From contig JAGAXF010000002.1 of the NCBI GenBank assembly GCA_017941085.1, forward strand, positions 124,001 through 188,000: a stretch of DNA of 64,000 bases, given 5' to 3'. This document shows, piece after piece, positions 12,460 through 58,892 of this stretch; position 1 is the first letter of the stretch, and the number at the start of each line of letters is the position of its first letter. Source of the DNA: Bacillota bacterium (lineage in GTDB: Bacteria > Bacillota > Clostridia > Peptostreptococcales > Anaerovoracaceae). The notes below the pieces were generated by a model. The model did not search any database. It had not been told where the DNA came from and saw nothing but the letters and a program-made list of their open reading frames with translations. A program made the position numbers and the translations under genes.

Positions 12460-13518
12460 ATGGAAAACGTAAAAGTAATCATCTGGGGTCTCGGTGCAAT
12501 GGGCGGCGGAATGGCTGACATGATCCTTATGAAAAAGGGTATCGAAATTGTTGGCGTAGCCGGCAGAGAAGGCAAGCAGGGTAAGTCAATGTACGATTTC
12601 ATCAAGACAGAAAAGGGAGATCGTCAGGACATCATCATTGGAGCTCCGGAAGATGTAATTAAACCAGGTGCAGCAGACATCGTTCTTCTTTGCACAGACT
12701 CTTTCACAAAGAATGCATTCCCAAGAATGAAATACATCCTTGAACAGGGAATCAACTGCATCACATCTGCAGAAGAAATGTGCTATCCTGCAGCTCAGAG
12801 CCCAGAACTGGCAAAGGAACTGGACGAGATTGCTAAGGCAAACGGCGTATCCATCCTGGGAACAGGTATCAACCCCGGTCACATCATGGACTCCCTGGTT
12901 CTCATTATGACAGGCTGCATGGTAGACGTAGAAGAAATCACATCCAGACGTGTTAACTCCCTCTCTCCATTTGGACCAGTTGTTATGGAAGAACAAGGTA
13001 TCGGCATCTCTGTAGAAGAATTCCAGAAGAGAAAAGCTGAGGGAACAATGTCCGGCCACGTAGGATTTGCAGAATCCGTAGGCATCATGGCAGAAGGTCT
13101 GGGACTTACAGTTAAGGAATTCAGCCAGGATATGAACCCAATTACAACAGATGTTGACAGAAAGAGCCCCCACGGATTTGCAGCAGCAGGTTCCTGCGCA
13201 GGCGTTGCAATGACCGCAGAAGCAGTTCTTTCAAACGGCATGAAGGTTCACATGGATCACCCACAGCAGATCGAGCCTGAACAGGTTGGAATCCAGACAG
13301 GTGACTATGTAATCATCAAGGGAACACCAAGCGTAAACATGGTTAACAGCCCAGAGGTTGAAGGTGGTCTTGGAACAATCGCAATGTGCGTAAACATGAT
13401 TCCGCAGGTAATCAATGCAGATCCAGGTCTTGTAACAATGATCGATCTTCCGCTTCCAAGAGCACTTATGGGAGACGTAAGAGACAGAATTAAACCGGAA
13501 AAGAAAATCGTAAAATAA
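12460..13518 (+). CDS. ord: 2,4-diaminopentanoate dehydrogenase
   Basis: Ord oxidatively deaminates (2R,4S)-2,4-diaminopentanoate to 2-amino-4-oxopentanoate with NAD(P)+, the third step of oxidative ornithine fermentation. The 352-residue protein begins with a dinucleotide-binding fold (VIIWGLGAMGGGMADMIL), related to dihydrodipicolinate reductases. The ATG at 12460 follows AAAAGGAG at a good distance; an in-frame TTG at 12391 is unlikely. It is the first gene of the ord-ortA-ortB-oraS-oraE operon and uses codons typical of highly expressed genes (ATC, AAC, AAG). Confidence 0.93.
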   Translation: MENVKVIIWGLGAMGGGMADMILMKKGIEIVGVAGREGKQGKSMYDFIKTEKGDRQDIIIGAPEDVIKPGAADIVLLCTDSFTKNAFPRMKYILEQGINCITSAEEMCYPAAQSPELAKELDEIAKANGVSILGTGINPGHIMDSLVLIMTGCMVDVEEITSRRVNSLSPFGPVVMEEQGIGISVEEFQKRKAEGTMSGHVGFAESVGIMAEGLGLTVKEFSQDMNPITTDVDRKSPHGFAAAGSCAGVAMTAEAVLSNGMKVHMDHPQQIEPEQVGIQTGDYVIIKGTPSVNMVNSPEVEGGLGTIAMCVNMIPQVINADPGLVTMIDLPLPRALMGDVRDRIKPEKKIVK

Positions 13519-13529
13519 GGAGATGCGAC

Positions 13530-13829
13530 ATGGCTAAGAAAGGCGATTGGGTTCGCATCCATGCTGTAGTCCTCAAGGCTGAAGAAAGAACAGCAAAGAT
13601 TCCTGAGGACACACAGAAATGCGACTTGGAAATGTGGACAAAGGGATTCCTTCTCAACGATACAGCGGAAATCGGCGACGAAGTTGAAGTAGAAACTGCT
13701 GTTGGTCGTAAGGAAAAGGGAACCCTAATAGAAGTTAATCCATATTACACACACAGCTACGGAAAATTCGTTCCGGAGCTTATCCAAATAGATAAGCAGC
13801 TCCGGGAGCTTATGGGAGGTGAAGAATAA
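13530..13829 (+). CDS. ortA: 2-amino-4-oxopentanoate thiolase, alpha subunit
   Basis: OrtA is the small subunit (99 residues) of the enzyme that splits 2-amino-4-oxopentanoate with CoA into acetyl-CoA and D-alanine. The sequence (KGDWVRIHAVVLKAEERTAKIPEDTQ) matches the characteristic OrtA pattern as I recall it, and length fits. AAGGAG precedes the start. Its last codon overlaps the ortB start codon (TAATG), which points to coupled translation of the two subunits. Confidence 0.92.
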   Translation: MAKKGDWVRIHAVVLKAEERTAKIPEDTQKCDLEMWTKGFLLNDTAEIGDEVEVETAVGRKEKGTLIEVNPYYTHSYGKFVPELIQIDKQLRELMGGEE

Positions 13830-15235
13830 TGGCACTTCCTAAAGATTATGATTCCGTAATGGGAAGATCCAACGACATAATGAAAACTGCACTGGGTCTG
13901 GATTACAACGATTATGAATCCGGCACCATTGCCTTTGATTATGAAGCACTTATGAAATCCACCGGCTATACATTGGAAGAGGTGGCAAGGATTCAGAGTG
14001 AAACAGCAGTTGGAAACACTCCTTTAATCGAACTTAGAAATATATCAAAGTTGGCAAGAAAATATGCAAAGCCCGGATACGGTGCTCGCATCTTTGCCAA
14101 GGATGAAGCAGCAAACGCCTCCGGTTCCTTTAAGGCACGTAGAGCTGCCTGCGCAGTTGCACATGCCAAGAAGCTGGGATACAAGGGCGTTATGGCTGCC
14201 ACCTCCGGAAACTATGGAGCAGCAGTAGCATCCCAGGCAGCAATGCAGGGACTTAAGTGCATTATCGTTCAGGAATGCTACGACTCCAAGGGAATCGGTC
14301 AGCCGGAAATCGTAGAGAAGGCAAGAAAGTGCGAAGCCTACGGAGCAGAAGTAATTCAGCTTACAGTAGGACCGGAACTTTTCTACACCTTCCTTTCGGT
14401 GCTGGAGGACACAGGATACTTTAATGCATCCCTTTACTCTCCCTTTGGTATTGCCGGAGTTGAAACTCTGGGTTACGAGATTGCAACCCAATGCCGCGAA
14501 ATCGCAGGCAAGGATCCGGATATGGTGGTATGCACCAACGCCGGAGGAGGAATGATGACCGGTACTGCTCGTGGTCTTATTAAGGCCGGTGCAGTAAACA
14601 CAACTTTAGTTGCAGCCTCCATAGACCTTAGCGGACTATCCATGGCCTCCGACGTAGCCTTTAACAAGAAGTCCTGCACCACAGGTCATACCGGATTTGG
14701 AGTTCCCTATGCAACAGATCCGGATCACTCTGATGTTCCAAGAAGTGCAGCAAGACCTCTTCGCTACATGGATCGTTACGTAACCGTAAAACAAGGGGAT
14801 GTAATGTACATGACAGAAGCTCTTGCCAATCTGGAAGGAATCGAAAGAGGTCCTGCCGGAAATACTGCTCTTGCAGCAGCATTCTCCCTGGCACAGGAAC
14901 TTCCTGAAGATGCAATTCTCGTAATCAGTGAAACAGAATACACCGGAGCAGGCAAGCATGTTCAGCCTCAGCTGGACTTTGCCAGAGACAACGGAATCGA
15001 CATTCACTTTGGCGATCCGGACAATGAAGACAAACCAGGTGTAAACGTGGTTCTTCCCAAGGATCCAAGCTACATCCACGCCATAGATGCTGACCTGGAT
15101 CACTTTAGACAGTCCCTGATTAAAAAATCCTGCCAGAAGTTCGGTGTAACTGAACCAAACGAAGCAGACCTTAAGTTCCTTGCAGAGGAAACAAAGACAG
15201 ACGTTGACTTCGTAAAGAGGACTCTCGGTCTGTAA
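13829..15235 (+). CDS. ortB: 2-amino-4-oxopentanoate thiolase, beta subunit (PLP)
   Basis: OrtB is the PLP-dependent catalytic subunit, related to threonine synthase and other fold-type II enzymes. In the 468-residue protein the segment NASGSFKARRAA (about 91-102) carries the PLP lysine, TSGNYGAAVA is the phosphate-side Asn loop and CTNAGGGMMTG binds the PLP phosphate. It works with OrtA to produce D-alanine and acetyl-CoA. After its stop there is a 140-base gap holding a long hairpin before oraS. Confidence 0.94.
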   Translation: MALPKDYDSVMGRSNDIMKTALGLDYNDYESGTIAFDYEALMKSTGYTLEEVARIQSETAVGNTPLIELRNISKLARKYAKPGYGARIFAKDEAANASGSFKARRAACAVAHAKKLGYKGVMAATSGNYGAAVASQAAMQGLKCIIVQECYDSKGIGQPEIVEKARKCEAYGAEVIQLTVGPELFYTFLSVLEDTGYFNASLYSPFGIAGVETLGYEIATQCREIAGKDPDMVVCTNAGGGMMTGTARGLIKAGAVNTTLVAASIDLSGLSMASDVAFNKKSCTTGHTGFGVPYATDPDHSDVPRSAARPLRYMDRYVTVKQGDVMYMTEALANLEGIERGPAGNTALAAAFSLAQELPEDAILVISETEYTGAGKHVQPQLDFARDNGIDIHFGDPDNEDKPGVNVVLPKDPSYIHAIDADLDHFRQSLIKKSCQKFGVTEPNEADLKFLAEETKTDVDFVKRTLGL

Positions 15236-15271
15236 TCCGTTTATCGCCAATTATCACCAAAATCAATAAAA

Positions 15272-15349
15272 GGGTTGAAGCTGTTGTAGGACGCTGCTTG
15301 TCCGCGCCCCTTGGGCTGTGGAGGCAGCGCCCATACAAAGCTTCAACCC
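15272..15349 (+). other. Long intercistronic hairpin between ortB and oraS
   Basis: The outer arms GGGTTGAAGCT (15272-15282) and AGCTTCAACCC (15339-15349) are perfectly complementary. They continue through a one-base bulge into TTGTA/TACAA, then GGACGCTGCT paired with GGCAGCGCCC (one mismatch), then GCCC/GGGC near the tip. Nearly the whole 78 bases form one rod. There is no T-run, so it is not a normal terminator. It may stabilise or process the message between thiolase and mutase genes. Confidence 0.75.
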
Positions 15350-15375
15350 ATGAAACAATTTAGGAGAGAAAAAGA

Positions 15376-15741
15376 ATGATAAGAGAAGACGATTTTGCGG
15401 AAAGAAGAAAACATATAGCTAACCTTTCCGACGAAGAGCTCTATAACAGATTTTGGGAGCTTACCGCCCAGGTAGTAGATCCTCTTTTGGAACTGGGCAG
15501 AAAGAACACGACTCCTTCAGTAGAAAGAGCTGTGCTTCTTCGCATGGGTGTTTCCTCCTTGGACACACAGAAAATCGTGGAAGGCTGCATAGACAATGGC
15601 CTTATGGGTCATGGCGCCGGCCACGTAGTATATAAAATTTCCCAGGAGAAGGGCATCTCCATTAGAGAAGCTTCAGAGCGCCTTGCCAAAGGTGAATTTT
15701 GGGAAGACGCTGTAGCAGCATTTAAGAAGGGAGGCAAGTAA
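15376..15741 (+). CDS. oraS: D-ornithine 4,5-aminomutase, small subunit
   Basis: OraS is the small subunit (121 residues, close to the known size) of the AdoCbl- and PLP-dependent mutase that moves the delta-amino group of D-ornithine to carbon 4. The sequence IREDDFAERRKHIANLSDEELYNRFWEL and KNTTPSVERAVLLRMG is characteristic. TTTAGGAG precedes the ATG. oraE follows after one base, so the subunits are made together. Confidence 0.94.
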   Translation: MIREDDFAERRKHIANLSDEELYNRFWELTAQVVDPLLELGRKNTTPSVERAVLLRMGVSSLDTQKIVEGCIDNGLMGHGAGHVVYKISQEKGISIREASERLAKGEFWEDAVAAFKKGGK

Positions 15742-15742
15742 T

Positions 15743-18004
15743 ATGTCAGATATCGTATTAAAACATAACGAGAAGCTTGACGTAAGAGAGATCTTAAAAG
15801 ATCTTGATAAATACGAGCCTCGCCGCAGAGGATGGCACTGGAGAGAACCGGCACCAAATCTTCAGATGGGCCCCTTTGTATATAAAGATTGTTCCAAGCC
15901 TTTAAAGAACAGTGTTGGCCTTCCGCCGGCAAAGTTCTTTGGTGACATCGATCCCCAGCCTCTTCCGGTTATAACAACGGAAATTGCTTCTGGTCGCTTT
16001 GAAGACGACATCAGAAGAATGAGGATGGCTGCCTGGCATGGTGCAGATCATATCATGGTAATTCGTCACATGGGTCAGTCCCATATTGACGGACTTATGG
16101 AAGGAACACCTCAGGGTATCGGAGGAATTCCTGTAACACGTAAGCAAGTAAGAGCCCAGAGAAAGGCTCTTGACGCAATAGAGGACGAAGTTGGTCGTCC
16201 AATTAACTATCACTCCTACGTATCCGGAGTAGCTGGACCGGACGTAGCCGTAATGTTTGCAGAAGAAGGAATCAACGGAGCTCACCAGGATCCTCAGTAC
16301 AACGTTCTCTATAGAGACATTAACTGTGTAAGATCCTTTGTTGACGCCTGCGAATCCAAGAAAATAATGGCATGGGCAGACATCCTTCAGATCGACGGCG
16401 CCCACAACGCCAATGCTACAGCCAGAGAAGCCTGGAAGGTAATGCCTGAACTTATCGTTCAGCATTCCATCAACTCCCTCTTCTCCGAAAAGGTAGGTAT
16501 GAAGCCGGAGAATATTTCTCTTTCAACAGTACCGCCATCGGCAACACCTGCACCTTGCATGCACCTGGATCTCCCATATGCAGTTGCCCTTAGAGACATC
16601 TGCGGAAGATACAAGATGAGAGCACAGCAGAACACAAAATACATCTGCTCCTCCGTAAGAGAAGCAACAGTAACCCATGTTCTGAACATGTTTATATCAA
16701 AGCTCACAAGCGCCGACATTCAGTCCACCATCACACCGGACGAAGGACGTAACGTTCCATGGCATATCTATAACATGGAAGCTTGCGACAACGCTAAGCA
16801 GGCTCTTATCGGTATGGACGGTCTCATGGAAATGGTAGAGCTAAAGAAGGACGGATACCTTCGTGAGGAAGCAAGAGACATCAAAGAAAGAGCTCTCCTC
16901 TTCATGGAAGAAATCATCGAGGTAGGCGGATACTTTAATGCCGTTCAGGAAGGATTCTTCGTAGACTCTGCCAAATATCCTGCTCGTAACGGTGACGGTA
17001 TCGCCCGTAAGATCGAAGGCGGCGTAGGCTATGGTTTCATCTTCGAAAGAGAAGAAGACTATATGGCTCCTGTAACTGCTCACTATGGATACAACAACGT
17101 AGAGCAGTACGGTGGAGATCCGGAAAATCCATCAGCCCTTATTGGCGGATGCACCTTTGAAGACAGAAGCAAAATCGTCTTCATCGACGAAATCGATCCT
17201 GACGACGAAGATTGCGTAAACGTACGTCTTGAAAAGGTTAAAAAGTATCTTGACGGCGAAGCCATCAAGCCTGAAATGGAATGGTGCGGAGACGGTGTGA
17301 TCCTCATTACCATGATGATTCCTGCCAATACCAGAACAGCAGAAGCCGTTGCCCTTGAAATCGGAAGAAAGATGGGCCTTGAAAATCCGGAAGTAACTTC
17401 TAAGGAAGTTATGCAGGAGGTTGAGGGTACCCGTATAGAAATGAAGGGTAAGGTTCCATGGGATGTGGATCCTAGCAATTTGGAAATCCCACCGGAACCA
17501 CATCATCTGCCGGATGCAATTCTCTATGAAGAATTCAAGAACCATCCAATGGTAGTTGTATGCGGAACAGTTGGAGAAGATGAGCACTCCGTAGGTCTCC
17601 GTGAGATTATTAACATCAAGCACGGCGGCATTGAAAAGTGGGGCATCAAAGTAAACTATCTGGGAACATCGGTACCTGTAGAGAAGCTGGTTGACGCAGC
17701 AGTTGAGTTGAATGCCAATGCTATTCTGGCATCAACCATTATCTCTCACGACAATATTCACTACAAGAACATGAAGAGAATAAATGACCTTGCAGTGGAA
17801 AAGGGTATCAGAGACAAGGTTATCATCGCAGCAGGCGGAACACAGGTAGTTCCGGAGGAAACACGTAAGACCGGAATCGACGAAGGCTTCGGTCGTGACT
17901 CCCACGGTATCGACGTAGCCACCTTCCTTTGCGAAGAGGCAATGCGTCGCAGAGGCGAGCTAGCACCAGGTGAAAAGGCTGACGAAAAATTCGGTAAGAA
18001 ATAA
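15743..18004 (+). CDS. oraE: D-ornithine 4,5-aminomutase, large subunit (B12- and PLP-binding)
   Basis: OraE carries both cofactors of ornithine aminomutase. The 753-residue protein has an N-terminal TIM-barrel region and a C-terminal Rossmann domain with the cobalamin-binding DXHXXG motif as EDEHSVGL at about residue 613, followed by SVPVEKL and the SxL-like/GG segments (IIAAGGTQVV). Length agrees with the C. sticklandii enzyme. It needs adenosylcobalamin, for which synthesis and salvage genes lie at 33-42 kb. A hairpin-containing gap separates it from the reactivating-factor gene. Confidence 0.96.
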   Translation: MSDIVLKHNEKLDVREILKDLDKYEPRRRGWHWREPAPNLQMGPFVYKDCSKPLKNSVGLPPAKFFGDIDPQPLPVITTEIASGRFEDDIRRMRMAAWHGADHIMVIRHMGQSHIDGLMEGTPQGIGGIPVTRKQVRAQRKALDAIEDEVGRPINYHSYVSGVAGPDVAVMFAEEGINGAHQDPQYNVLYRDINCVRSFVDACESKKIMAWADILQIDGAHNANATAREAWKVMPELIVQHSINSLFSEKVGMKPENISLSTVPPSATPAPCMHLDLPYAVALRDICGRYKMRAQQNTKYICSSVREATVTHVLNMFISKLTSADIQSTITPDEGRNVPWHIYNMEACDNAKQALIGMDGLMEMVELKKDGYLREEARDIKERALLFMEEIIEVGGYFNAVQEGFFVDSAKYPARNGDGIARKIEGGVGYGFIFEREEDYMAPVTAHYGYNNVEQYGGDPENPSALIGGCTFEDRSKIVFIDEIDPDDEDCVNVRLEKVKKYLDGEAIKPEMEWCGDGVILITMMIPANTRTAEAVALEIGRKMGLENPEVTSKEVMQEVEGTRIEMKGKVPWDVDPSNLEIPPEPHHLPDAILYEEFKNHPMVVVCGTVGEDEHSVGLREIINIKHGGIEKWGIKVNYLGTSVPVEKLVDAAVELNANAILASTIISHDNIHYKNMKRINDLAVEKGIRDKVIIAAGGTQVVPEETRKTGIDEGFGRDSHGIDVATFLCEEAMRRRGELAPGEKADEKFGKK

Positions 18005-18009
18005 AATCA

Positions 18010-18089
18010 AAGGCTGAGAGTTGGGTAATAGTCCATCATCCCTAGGAAGAAGGCAAACTACCAAGCCCTCAGCCTTCCTTGCGTTTTTT
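18010..18089 (+). other. Intercistronic hairpin with T-run between oraE and the mutL-like gene
   Basis: AAGGCTGAG (18010-18018) pairs with CTCAGCCTT (18068-18076); inside, GTTGGGTA pairs with TACCAAGC apart from one mismatch. Six T follow at 18084-18089, a little far from the stem. It may act as a leaky terminator that lowers expression of the downstream accessory genes. Confidence 0.6.
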
Positions 18090-18099
18090 GGAGAAAGAT

Positions 18100-19776
18100 A
18101 TGAAAGTAGATGTTCTTGTTGCGGAGATTGGCTCCACCACCACAGTTGTAAATGCTTTTACCGGACTGGACACAGACAGTCCTGTTTTCTGGGGACAGGG
18201 ACAGGCCCCTACTTCAGTTCTGGAAGGGGATGTACGAGTAGGTCTTCAGGGAGCCATTGACGATCTCTGCAGAAACAAAGGCATAGAAAGTATAGAATAT
18301 AATGAGATGCTGGCCACATCCTCTGCTGCCGGTGGTCTTAAGATGACGGTTCACGGTCTGGTCTACGATATGACAGCCAAGGCAGCCAAGGAAGCTGCTC
18401 TTGGCGCCGGTGGCATTATCCACTATATTACCGCCGGTAGATTAAGACGAACAGACATTGCCAAGATAAAGGAAATAAGCCCCAATCTAATTTTGATTGC
18501 CGGTGGTGTTGACTATGGTGAAAGAGAAACCGCTCTGGACAACGCGGAGATGATAAGATCCATGGGATTAAAAATTCCCGTTATCTATGCAGGTAATATA
18601 GAAAACCAGGAGGAGATGAAACTTATCTTCGATGAAGAAAGCGGGCAGAAGCTCTATCTGGTTGACAACGTCTATCCTAAAATTGATGAGCTTAATGTGG
18701 AGCCCTGCAGAAAAGTCATCCAGGATGCATTTGAGCAGCACATTACCAATGCTCCCGGAATGGAGCACGTAAGGGATATGGTAAGTGGGCCCATCATTCC
18801 AACTCCCGGCGCGGTAATGGAGGCCACCAAGGTTCTCTATGATTGCTTGGGGGATTTAATAGTTTTGGATGTAGGGGGCGCCACAACAGACCTTCACTCC
18901 GTTGCCGCAGAATCCGACAAGGTTGCCAGGCTTATGATCTCTCCGGAACCCAAGGCAAAACGAACGGTAGAAGGAGACTTGGGGGTATACGTAAACCGAA
19001 TGAAGGTTATAGAATCCATCGGTGAAGAAAAGCTTCGGGAAAAATGTGCCAAGGAAGGATTCGACATGGACAAGGTTCTGGAAACCTATGTGGCCATTCC
19101 CAAAACAGAGGAAGAAATCAAATTCGTGGAAATGCTTACAGAGGAAGCTGTTCTAAAGGCCACCGATAGACATGCCGGTGCTTTAAGACATATCTACGGT
19201 CCCTCCGGAAGAAGTACCGTTGCAGAGGGAAAGGACTTAACCCAGGTAAGATATATTGTGGGAACCGGCGGTGCCTTAACAAGACTTCCAAACAGAGTAA
19301 AAATCATGGAAGAGATAGCCAAGCATAATGAAACGGGAATGAAGCTCTTCCCCACGGAGCACGCCAAAGTGCTGGTGGACAATGACTATATAATGGCGTC
19401 CCTTGGAGTTCTTTCCAAGAACTATAGAGAGGCAGCTATTAAACTTATGGAACAAAGTCTGGATTTCAAATTCCCGGAGAAAAAAGAAGCCCAAAACTTC
19501 AGCGGAATGTCCAAGGCTCTCTTGGAGGCAGAAATGCTGGCCAAGGAAGCCGACGACAAAGAAGCGGAATACCAACACCACTTGGATGAAATGGAGAAGG
19601 AAGGCTTCGACATGTCTGAGTGGAGGGAACCGGCAAAGGTTGTTACGGATCCGGAGGAACTGGAAAGGGAGCTATCAAAGGAAGCAGGAAGAATTGCCAT
19701 GGGATGCAATCAGGAATGCGAAAGATGTATTCGAACAAACTGCCAGTTCCGTAAGGAATCAGCCAAGAGAAAATAG
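18100..19776 (+). CDS. MutL/GlmL-type ATPase, likely reactivator of ornithine aminomutase
   Basis: The 558-residue protein starts with an ASKHA-fold phosphate loop (VLVAEIGSTTTVVNAF) and has a second ATPase motif LIVLDVGGATTDLHSV; these features and size place it with GlmL/MutL proteins found beside B12-dependent aminomutases. They are thought to release inactivated cobalamin from the mutase at the cost of ATP. The C-terminus carries a cysteine cluster (CNQECERCIRTNC). The ATG at 18100 follows TTTGGAG; an in-frame TTG at 18079 lies in the hairpin region and is less likely. It lies between oraE and orr. Confidence 0.88.
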   Translation: MKVDVLVAEIGSTTTVVNAFTGLDTDSPVFWGQGQAPTSVLEGDVRVGLQGAIDDLCRNKGIESIEYNEMLATSSAAGGLKMTVHGLVYDMTAKAAKEAALGAGGIIHYITAGRLRRTDIAKIKEISPNLILIAGGVDYGERETALDNAEMIRSMGLKIPVIYAGNIENQEEMKLIFDEESGQKLYLVDNVYPKIDELNVEPCRKVIQDAFEQHITNAPGMEHVRDMVSGPIIPTPGAVMEATKVLYDCLGDLIVLDVGGATTDLHSVAAESDKVARLMISPEPKAKRTVEGDLGVYVNRMKVIESIGEEKLREKCAKEGFDMDKVLETYVAIPKTEEEIKFVEMLTEEAVLKATDRHAGALRHIYGPSGRSTVAEGKDLTQVRYIVGTGGALTRLPNRVKIMEEIAKHNETGMKLFPTEHAKVLVDNDYIMASLGVLSKNYREAAIKLMEQSLDFKFPEKKEAQNFSGMSKALLEAEMLAKEADDKEAEYQHHLDEMEKEGFDMSEWREPAKVVTDPEELERELSKEAGRIAMGCNQECERCIRTNCQFRKESAKRK

Positions 19777-19790
19777 TAGCCCGCAAACAA

Positions 19791-19836
19791 AGCGTATACT
19801 TATAAGAAAAAAGCGTAAAACAACTATGCTTTGGAA
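19791..19836 (+). other. Weak stem between mutL-like gene and orr
   Basis: CAAAGCGTA near 19791 and TATGCTTTG near 19826 can pair at both ends of the 71-base gap. The stem is short and has no T-run. Function unknown. Confidence 0.35.
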
Positions 19837-19847
19837 TAGGAGACATT

Positions 19848-20936
19848 ATGTACCCAAAAGTAATAATAGATTTACCCAAGCTAAAACAAAATCTGGATGC
19901 AGTTTCAGAAACCACCAAAGACAGAGGAGGATGCAGCCTGGCTATAGTAACCAAGGTGCTCTGTGCTGATCCACAGGTGGTTAAGATGATTGCTGCTCAC
20001 CCAAAGGTAGATTTAATTGCCGACTCCAGAATAAAAAACATTGCAACCTATACAGACATAGCCCATGAAAACGGCAAGAAAACCATGCTCTTAAGAATCC
20101 CCATGTTAAGCGAACTGGCGGAGGTGGTAAGGTATGTGGATCTTTGTCAAATAAGTGAAGTAGAAACCATCAGAAGGTTGAACGAAGAAGCGGCAAAGGC
20201 CGACAAGGTTCAAAAGATTTTACTTATGATTGACATGGGAGATTTAAGAGAAGGAATCTTCTTTAAGGATAGGGACCTGATTCAACAAGCGGTAAGAGAA
20301 ATAATAGACATGGAAAACATAGAACTCTATGGTATAGGGGTAAACCTAACCTGCTATGGTGCCATTATTCCAAAATACGAAAACCTAAATGGTCTGGTGG
20401 AAATCGCCAAGGAAATCGAAGTGCAGCACGGAATAAAACTGTCCATGATTTCAGGCGGCAACTCCAGCTCCATATATTTGATAGATAAGGGAGAGCTTCC
20501 TCAGGGAATCAACAACCTTCGCCTGGGTGAATCCTTTGTTCTTGGAAACGATACGGCATATGAAACAAAGCTTCCCGGAACCACCGATGAAGCCTTTGTA
20601 CTGGAGGCAGAGATTGTGGAATTAAAATCCAAGCCCTCCCTGCCCATAGGAGAAGTGGGAGTAGACGCCTTTGGTCAAAAGCCCTATTACGAGGATAGAG
20701 GCATAATGGATAGAGCCATAATTGCAATTGGCAAACAGGATGTGGATATAGACAGCATGACACCCCTAGATGACAGAATCGAAATCATGGGAGGAAGTTC
20801 CGACCATATTATTCTGGATGTAACCAAATGCAAGGAGGACTATAGTCTGGGATCAAAGGTAAGATTTAAGTTGGGCTACGGTGGACTTCTTAAGGTAATG
20901 ACCAGTGCCTATGTGGAAAAGGAATACCTTATATAA
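19848..20936 (+). CDS. orr: Ornithine racemase (alanine racemase family)
   Basis: The mutase OraSE acts on D-ornithine, so the pathway needs a racemase. This 362-residue protein has the PLP barrel of alanine racemases, with the Schiff-base lysine in LAIVTKVLCAD (about residue 34), LLMIDMGDLREG and the phosphate-binding ISGGNSSSIY. It lacks the usual full alanine-racemase C-terminal pattern and matches the ornithine racemase type in length and context. AATAGGAG precedes the ATG. It is the last gene of the locus. Confidence 0.9.
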   Translation: MYPKVIIDLPKLKQNLDAVSETTKDRGGCSLAIVTKVLCADPQVVKMIAAHPKVDLIADSRIKNIATYTDIAHENGKKTMLLRIPMLSELAEVVRYVDLCQISEVETIRRLNEEAAKADKVQKILLMIDMGDLREGIFFKDRDLIQQAVREIIDMENIELYGIGVNLTCYGAIIPKYENLNGLVEIAKEIEVQHGIKLSMISGGNSSSIYLIDKGELPQGINNLRLGESFVLGNDTAYETKLPGTTDEAFVLEAEIVELKSKPSLPIGEVGVDAFGQKPYYEDRGIMDRAIIAIGKQDVDIDSMTPLDDRIEIMGGSSDHIILDVTKCKEDYSLGSKVRFKLGYGGLLKVMTSAYVEKEYLI

Positions 20937-57727: not shown

Positions 57728-58723
57728 ATGGCAATCAATCTTAAGGGTAGAAATTTCTTAACACTTATGGATTTCACACCGGAGGAAATTAGATACCTCT
57801 TGGATCTTTCTCACGATTTGAAATCAAAGAAGAGAGCAGGCATCAGAAACAATCTGCTGGCTGGCAAGAACATCGTTCTTCTCTTTGAAAAGAATTCCAC
57901 AAGAACTCGTTGTGCTTTTGAAGTAGCAGCAATGGATGAAGGCGGCGGAGTTACATTCCTTGATTCCGGCAGCTCCCAGATGGGTAAGAAGGAAACAATT
58001 GCTGACACAGCAAAGGTTCTTGGAAGATTCTATGACGGTATCGAATACAGAGGATTCAAGCAGTCTGTTGTAGAAGAACTGGCAGCAAATGCTGGCGTTC
58101 CAGTATGGAATGGTCTTACAGACGTTGACCACCCAACACAGATTCTTGCTGACCTTATGACTATTGAAGAGCACGTTGCAAAGCCTCTTAACAAGGTTAA
58201 GGTTGTATTCTCCGGCGACATCAGAAACAACATGAGCTATGCATGGATGTATGGCTGCGCCAAGATGGGAATGCACTATGTAGCATATGGACCAAAGGAA
58301 CTGGAAAAGGAACTGGACAAGAAGGCTGTTGATGCTGCTAAGAAGGTAGCAAAGGAAACAGGCGGAACCATCGAAATCAGCCACGATCCTAAGAGTCTCA
58401 AGGGCGCAGACGTAATCTATGCTGACGTTTGGGCATCCATGGGTGAAGAAAAAGAAATTCCAAAGAGAGTTAAACTTCTCACACCTTTCAAGGTTACTGC
58501 TGATATGATGAAGAAGACAGGAAATCCGGATTGCATCTTCATGCACTGCCTGCCTTCCTTCCACGATTTCGAAACAACAATGGCTGCTGAGCAGAAGAAG
58601 CTTAAATACGACATCCGTGAGGTTACAGATGAAGTATTCCTTTCACCGGCATCCAAGGTATTTGATGAAGCAGAAAACAGAATGCACACCATCAAAGCTG
58701 TTATCGTAGCAACAATTGGCTAA
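57728..58723 (+). CDS. argF: Ornithine carbamoyltransferase
   Basis: The enzyme joins or splits ornithine plus carbamoyl phosphate and citrulline. The 331-residue protein has the carbamoyl phosphate loop NSTRTRCAFE, DVDHPTQILADL and MHCLPSFHD. Next to arcA and arcC it most likely works in the catabolic direction (arcB role). GAAAGGAG precedes the start. Codon use is of the highly expressed type. A 117-base hairpin element separates it from arcC. Confidence 0.96.
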   Translation: MAINLKGRNFLTLMDFTPEEIRYLLDLSHDLKSKKRAGIRNNLLAGKNIVLLFEKNSTRTRCAFEVAAMDEGGGVTFLDSGSSQMGKKETIADTAKVLGRFYDGIEYRGFKQSVVEELAANAGVPVWNGLTDVDHPTQILADLMTIEEHVAKPLNKVKVVFSGDIRNNMSYAWMYGCAKMGMHYVAYGPKELEKELDKKAVDAAKKVAKETGGTIEISHDPKSLKGADVIYADVWASMGEEKEIPKRVKLLTPFKVTADMMKKTGNPDCIFMHCLPSFHDFETTMAAEQKKLKYDIREVTDEVFLSPASKVFDEAENRMHTIKAVIVATIG

Positions 58724-58734
58724 AAAATAATACA

Positions 58735-58851
58735 ATACTCGGGTTGGACCGCTTGCGCTTAGTCCTCGTGTAGCGGTTCTAAGCTCTTGCGTCGCATGGG
58801 TATGCTTGCAATCGCTAAGAACCGACACTGCAGAAGTCCAAACCCGAGTAT
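58735..58851 (+). other. Large hairpin element between argF and arcC
   Basis: ATACTCGGGTTGGAC (58735-58749) pairs with GTCCAAACCCGAGTAT (58836-58851) apart from one bulge. Inside, GTGT..CGGTTCT..AGC pairs with GCT.AGAACCG.ACAC and then TTGC/GCAA and GCAT/ATGC, making a second long stem. There is no T-run. It resembles the ortB-oraS hairpin in size, place and its GGGTTG...AACCC ends. Confidence 0.75.
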
Positions 58852-58892
58852 ATCTTATTTTTTGAGTATTTATTTACAGAGAGGAAATAACA

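Follow-up and report, generated by a model that had tools for sequence, protein, structure and literature searches.

MITEs are small non-coding inverted-repeat elements in intergenic space, and they are one of the described systems with which the hairpin analysed here can be compared. REPs are another: according to the excerpted text of PMC3733652, these are short extragenic palindromes of 20-40 bases, dispersed in the genome, for which a role in mRNA stability or termination has been hypothesised. Inside E. coli operons, stems without a T-run protect the upstream part of the transcript from 3' exonucleases, a role that has been measured. Of 34 E. coli operons whose first gene is stabilised, 26 have the 3' terminus of the stabilised portion immediately 3' of a stable hairpin without uridine tract (both statements follow the available portion of PMC5927463). 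Finally, template switching can create as well as repair stems, as stated in the accessible part of PMC8794818.

The window, that is, the whole stretch of 64,000 nucleotides (64 kb) from a Bacillota bacterium that was analysed, carries an ornithine-degradation operon in which ord, ortA, ortB, oraE, Or-4 and orr have NCBIfam matches above the cut-offs. The operon is preceded by a sigma-54 activator gene, with PrdR as its best NCBIfam match, below the cut-off. A hairpin sits between ortB and oraS (Table 1). Its placement between the OrtAB and OraSE parts, as given in a preliminary description of this DNA, is borne out by the NCBIfam names and, for oraS, by gene position. The hairpin is reminiscent of the protective malE-malF type in being a stable stem-loop without U-tract between co-directional operon genes (PMC5927463, in its available portion). 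It differs in that the role of that type was measured in E. coli, while the present hairpin belongs to a clostridial lineage and is known from its anatomy, and in that its sequence seems to be derived from a dispersed element. A second hairpin on the other side of oraSE, missed in the preliminary description, reaches -27.4 kcal/mol (z -4.1); by eye, it has no clear copy of the module listed in Table 1. Along 12463-20936 of the window, DNA identity to the nearest relative, the congener G011, is higher in ord (90%), ortB (85%), oraS (84%) and oraE (83%) and lower in the regulator gene (75%), ortA (77%), Or-4 (77%) and orr (74%).

Table 1. Features in and around the ortB-oraS gap, in window positions (G000 is the genome to which the window belongs)
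Feature	Position	Strand	Basis
ortB, upstream neighbour, stop codon about 36-37 bases before the hairpin	13829..15235	+	NCBIfam NF040741
Near-perfect hairpin/palindrome, 78 bases	15272..15349	+	folding, shuffles, palindrome scan
Module left half, CTTGTCCGCG (other G000 element: CTTGTCCTCG)	15297..15306	+	pattern and permutation test
Module inner stem and loop, CCC-CTT-GGG	15307..15315	+	pattern search, fold comparison
Module right half, CTGTGGAGG (other G000 element: CTGCGGAGG)	15316..15324	+	pattern and permutation test
oraS, small mutase subunit, start 26 bases after the hairpin	15376..15741	+	place before oraE; no NCBIfam match
oraE, D-ornithine 4,5-aminomutase large subunit	15743..18004	+	NCBIfam NF040743
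Weaker second hairpin, in the gap from oraE to Or-4 (GlmL-related)	18010..18076	+	folding

On folding, the element is a single hairpin of 34 pairs, two of them G-U, with a 3-base loop, a GC content of 0.62 and an energy of -51.9 kcal/mol. None of 200 dinucleotide shuffles equals its fold (z -7.9), and in sliding 90-base folds it is the largest GC-corrected outlier in the 64 kb, with a z of -7.7 against -4.7 for the next. The near-perfect hairpin announced earlier is thus real and the strongest fold in the window; of the 31-32 pairs then estimated, the strong pairing stands and the count was slightly low. For comparison within G000, we used 133 co-directional gaps of 40-400 bases, from crude gene calls in 474 kb (29% of the genome). 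Among these, the ortB-oraS gap ranks second in longest helix, the first being a helix of 42 pairs in a 379-base gap with a z of -0.9. It ranks fourth by shuffle z and second by energy per base. In a Watson-Crick palindrome scan of the same 474 kb, the hairpin ties for third among the 11 intergenic palindromes with a score of 30 or more and a loop below 40.

There is no T-run 3' of the stem, just as the preliminary description had it, and a terminator/promoter scan lists no terminator-like or promoter-like site within the gap. A transcription terminator or attenuator that reduces oraSE expression would be in keeping with the stable GC-rich stem, and some hairpins in operon gaps of relatives do end in short T-runs; the missing T-run and the empty terminator scan nevertheless make such a role improbable here. 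A role in RNA processing or stability fits the anatomy, in which the stem is stable, lacks a T-run and separates two enzyme cassettes; the hairpin may act on the RNA either by blocking decay or through processing. The two strands of the region fold almost equally well (-53.4 and -52.8 kcal/mol in 90-base folds). This near-equality and the mere two G-U pairs out of 34 would also accord with a palindrome without function, made or perfected by template switching during replication and tolerated in the intercistronic gap. A single template-switching event can yield a perfect stem (PMC8794818, accessible part).

The hairpin had also been suggested to be a small mobile repeat, with a search for further copies proposed as a check. 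At E<=0.001, the 98-base hairpin region finds in G000 itself and its own reverse complement and nothing else, and a plain sequence repeat is ruled out. Two weaker matches of 17-22 bases occur in G000 besides itself. Matches of 15-23 bases are all that is found in the congeners (5 of 12, best E 0.01), and phages and plasmids give no match. Strict copies are therefore absent; the suggestion of a repeat gains support in an unforeseen form, as the module and the fold recur with different arms in one other element of G000 and, more loosely, in a related palindrome family of the genus. Compensatory changes, the second proposed check, are present in that family. As to known RNA families, Rfam gives nothing near a gathering threshold at the hairpin, the best being a chance match of 16.4 versus 60 bits. 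Five congener loci with elements of this palindrome family (L053, L062, L063, L073, L080) yield one overlapping Rfam match, at 24.1 versus 85 bits. No target-site duplication was seen when the flanks of the hairpin were inspected by eye.

The nearest relative G011 (OraS 99% identical; oraS DNA 84%, ortB DNA 85%) has an ortB-oraS gap of 22 bases and no hairpin there; the hairpin is therefore not essential. Other members of the genus differ widely at this place. The gap is 16-20 bases in G001, G007 and G012 (G001 nevertheless carries small hairpins at its ord-ortA and oraE-mutL gaps) and 84 bases, without strong hairpin, in G010, while hairpins of unrelated sequence occupy it in G003 (114 bases), G004 (107), G005 (237) and G002 (220); OraS was not found in G006, G008 and G009. 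The hairpin is thus gained or lost within the genus, a behaviour that a functionless palindrome would also show. A broader survey took the best 80 of 133 loci with OraS similarity, overlapping the congeners G001-G012, and the ortB-oraS gap could be measured in 77. It is shorter than 40 bases in 37 of the 77 and longer in 40, so that any function at the gap is dispensable. Across the species of these 77 loci, the gap showed no conserved sequence.

These data bear on the earlier idea of a control element for the mutase. A riboswitch-like element controlling the B12-dependent enzyme would suit the position directly 5' of oraS; the simple hairpin, its absence from G011, the lack of a conserved sequence at the gap among species and the lack of an Rfam match near a gathering score all speak against it, and we consider it very improbable. 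The idea thus finds no support, given G011, the short gaps and the Rfam result. The hairpin is not a repeat of the classical kind, and the evidence speaks against a riboswitch as well.

Fold strength was compared for operon gaps of 40-250 bases, identical ones counted once, with 25 other co-directional gaps of the same loci as control, of which 7 reach z<=-2. Strong folds are enriched in the ord-ortA gaps (39/57 at z<=-2, p 9e-5) and in the oraE-mutL gaps (26/36, p 9e-5), whereas the excess in the ortB-oraS gaps is not significant (14/36, p 0.11); as the loci are related, these p values are a guide only. The same operon gaps are occupied by unrelated hairpins in other species. An intercistronic RNA element proper to this operon, a decay barrier or RNase III site of independent origin that resembles the elements of the genus by chance or convergence, has to be weighed. 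The strong folds of unrelated sequence in two of the operon gaps of the 80 loci speak for it, whereas the ortB-oraS gaps below 40 bases speak against it.

In G003, G005 and G011, the oraE-mutL gaps have a common apex, CTCGCCCTNCGGGCTCARACA. Searched with up to two mismatches and N at the R position, this apex gives 29 matches in 5 of the 13 genus genomes, none of them in G000, as compared to one match for the reversed pattern. In 26 of these matches, the apex forms the middle of an imperfect palindrome 164-280 bases long, the upper value being about the limit of the stretch folded; the remaining three are shorter. The inner pieces of these palindromes are conserved and the arms are different; several copies in G003 are near-identical to one another. 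In an alignment of 18 members, 34 pairs form the consensus structure, and 27 of them show at least one change on both sides. In this alignment, 92% of the cells pair, none of 500 shuffles reaches any of five covariation measures and no slid register attains the observed covariation; in this test, the alignment itself supplied the structure, and its 18 rows are related. A module recurs, with GTCCTCG as left half and CTGCGGA as right half, both halves being exact in 9 and the left half exact in 11 of the 18 aligned members.

A covariance model of the 18 members, R1, matches at E<=0.01 in 10 of the 13 genus genomes, including that of the window, with at most 150 candidates scored per genome. The counts are 40 in G005, 35 in G003, 16 in G011 (one place on both strands), 12 in G008, 7 in G002, 4 in G007, 3 in G010 and one each in G000, G004 and G009; with the same number of candidates, there is no match at this threshold in G001, G006 and G012. 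At E<=1e-4, matches occur in 17 of 148 genomes (14 of 92 genera) drawn from the taxonomic family. The G000 member, at C13:119957-120108 (L124 1446-1597), is a row of the training set and a full long-palindrome member, adjoined by further short repeats. R1 also matches in the ornithine operon, in the oraE-mutL gap of G003, G004 (31 bits, E 6e-4), G005 and G011, and G005 has matches in three operon gaps (oraE-mutL, ortB-oraS and mutL-orr). Among these operon elements, R1 was trained on the oraE-mutL ones of G005 and G011 and not on the others, of which that of G003 closely resembles training rows. Such dispersed elements in the same gaps of congeners argue against an origin confined to this operon.

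With near-copies removed, 46 distinct R1 loci with locus identifiers were placed in their gene context: 21 are co-directional, 17 convergent, 2 divergent and 6 at contig edges or within long frames. Against the gaps of G000 without the window (137 co-directional, 21 convergent, 29 divergent), there is an excess at convergent gaps (p 1e-5), from which it follows that R1 members lean to gene 3' ends. The deficit at divergent gaps is not significant (p 0.12), and there is no bias in orientation relative to genes (13 same, 8 opposite). G-U pairs are rare; in 28 elements, they make up about 4.5%, whichever contig strand is considered. With 27 elements set in the orientation of the model, the antisense strand has roughly twice as many of them as the other (137 versus 70, pooled over related elements). 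This may be a hint of an RNA transcribed from that strand and of selection on an RNA.

Several further palindromes were seen in passing. In G003, the palindromes at L037 13186-13443 and 4621-4902 lie inside an outer inverted repeat of the GGGGACGGTTCTACTTG type, as palindromes nested in palindromes; this type of inverted repeat also occurs without an element of the family, in an ord-ortA gap. The window holds, at 58720-58866, a 147-base imperfect palindrome with the halves GTCCTCG / CTGCAGA and a 75% identical counterpart at G000:C6:50457-50558, possibly another member of the palindrome family. Nested inverted repeats, one with TCCTCG/CTGCGGA, cluster in 390 bases at L050 1780-2170 (G000:C33 ~189780-190170). 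Two TGTTTCACGTGAAACA palindromes lie close together at L049 16540-16604 (G000:C33 ~120540-120604); we take them to resemble the parS sites of the ParB/Spo0J system.

Does the window hairpin belong to this palindrome family? It carries the module in the form GTCCGCG / CTGTGGA around a 3-pair inner stem. G000 has a second element of this build at C8:26312-26388; this hairpin, 77 bases long and folding at -47.3 kcal/mol, has arms unrelated to those of the window hairpin. Both share a TG bulge, TCC/GGA, a T bulge, a short inner stem and a 3-base loop, in the order stem, CTTGTCC(K)CG, short stem with 3-base loop, CTG(Y)GGAGG, stem. The window hairpin differs from the 19-base C8 template CTTGTCCTCG / CTGCGGAGG at 2 positions, and none of 20,000 pair-permuted hairpins comes as close. 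This 19-base module is the main evidence of kinship. The fit to the 14-base consensus (GTCCTCG plus CTGCGGA) is weak, with an uncorrected permutation P of 0.02-0.04 (2.4-3.7%).

With K and Y chosen with the window hairpin in view, the pattern GTCCKCGN{5,35}CTGYGGA has 45 matches in the 13 genus genomes versus 16 for the reversed pattern. In G000 it has exactly two (control 0), namely the window and C8 hairpins. Of the 30 matches examined among the 45, crude calling places 24 inside a frame of 120 aa or more, and 7 show an inner stem that is flush and has 3 pairs or more (L274, L282, L284, L294, L296, L297, L298). These seven include both G000 matches; four lie in frames of at least 120 aa, and L296 has no framing hairpin. 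In sampled stretches of G000, a search for the degenerate pattern without mismatches and enclosed by an outer stem finds the window hairpin alone (control 0), and a looser motif-with-stems search with 2 mismatches shows no excess (one match, not the window hairpin, versus one control).

The window hairpin thus has the module letters and the short inner stem inside a long hairpin, and covariance models of other members do not recover it. R1 gives no match to it up to E 10. R2, a model of six short members including the C8 hairpin, scores it at 6.7 bits (E 2.1 in an unfiltered search of 8 kb), which is noise level; we believe that R2 suffers from the variable arms that fill most of its columns. 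Of the features of the long-palindrome subfamily, neither the inner TTTCGGGA/TCCAACGAAA loop nor the CTCGCCCTNCGGGCTCARACA apex is matched in the window. Since R1 and R2 miss it, membership is likely rather than proven. The C8 hairpin lies in a divergent gap, presumably between rpsT-like and MetA-like genes, and not between operon genes, an exception to the leaning of the family to 3' ends.

The family is REP-like and most likely distinct from REPs. Like REP and BIME elements, its members are short, non-coding, dispersed, extragenic palindromes. Unlike REPs, of which a genome holds many near-identical ones, the window hairpin has no sequence copies, and the arms of the family vary; its members reach 280 bases, as compared to the 20-40 given for REPs (PMC3733652, excerpted text). 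RAYT seems an unlikely mobiliser, the distribution of Y1_Tnp (PF01797) being roughly opposite to that of R1. In these assemblies, several of which are incomplete, the domain is absent from the R1-rich G003, G005 and G011, while the R1-free G001 and G012 have 11 and 5 and G006 none, and the R1-bearing G010 has one. In G000, the domain is represented by a single partial PF01797 match that contains a stop. The resemblance to MITEs lies in small, non-coding, intergenic inverted-repeat elements; the differences are that the window hairpin has no visible target-site duplication, that the inverted repeats of the family are not constant between copies and that the family has no known parent transposon, in a search that covered PF01797. 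Among the matches listed from the palindrome, hairpin, structured-RNA and template-switching literature, no published description of this palindrome family was recognised.

Taken against this background, an operon-specific element of independent origin is somewhat unlikely: R1 and R2 do miss the window hairpin, as such an origin would have it, whereas the module held in common with the C8 hairpin speaks for kinship. A functionless palindrome seems unlikely, as neither a common module nor an enrichment at convergent genes is expected of random palindromes and as the strand asymmetry of G-U pairs in 27 family palindromes hints at selection on RNA. Our tentative preference, held at slightly less than even confidence, is that the window hairpin is a small member of a dispersed family of palindromes with variable arms and that, if it acts at all, it most likely serves as a 3' decay barrier when transcribed. 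Probably it represents, in minimal form, a palindrome family that is distinct and belongs to this lineage; it would then descend from that family, whose elements may have moved.

According to the preferred reading, members of the family would consist of a non-coding module, GTCCKCG / CTGYGGA, closed by a short stem-loop and framed by long arms whose sequence would differ from copy to copy with self-complementarity retained. Renewal of the arms could proceed by template switching or, alternatively, by stepwise compensation. One such palindromic element would have come to lie 3' of ortB. Read-through of the operon would then place a very stable stem-loop without T-run in the transcript, and this could form a 3' decay barrier for the ord-ortAB part, setting it apart from the oraSE part.

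It could be imagined, though we regard this further step as doubtful, that these palindromes are a new class of mobile or spreading structured elements in the genus. Core and inner loops would be conserved and an arm of up to about 100 bp would be rewritten yet remain complementary, through selection on RNA or through template switching. The window hairpin would be the minimal form, and the elements would be reused as interchangeable decay barriers that separate the enzyme cassettes in ornithine operons. If true, operon hairpins would be supplied by a dispersed palindrome with arms that are renewed and not copied, which is unpredicted by classical REP and MITE models. The same gap with the same enzymes, in which the hairpin is present, absent or replaced, would furthermore offer a natural series for intercistronic hairpins that may set the ratios of the enzymes of ornithine fermentation.
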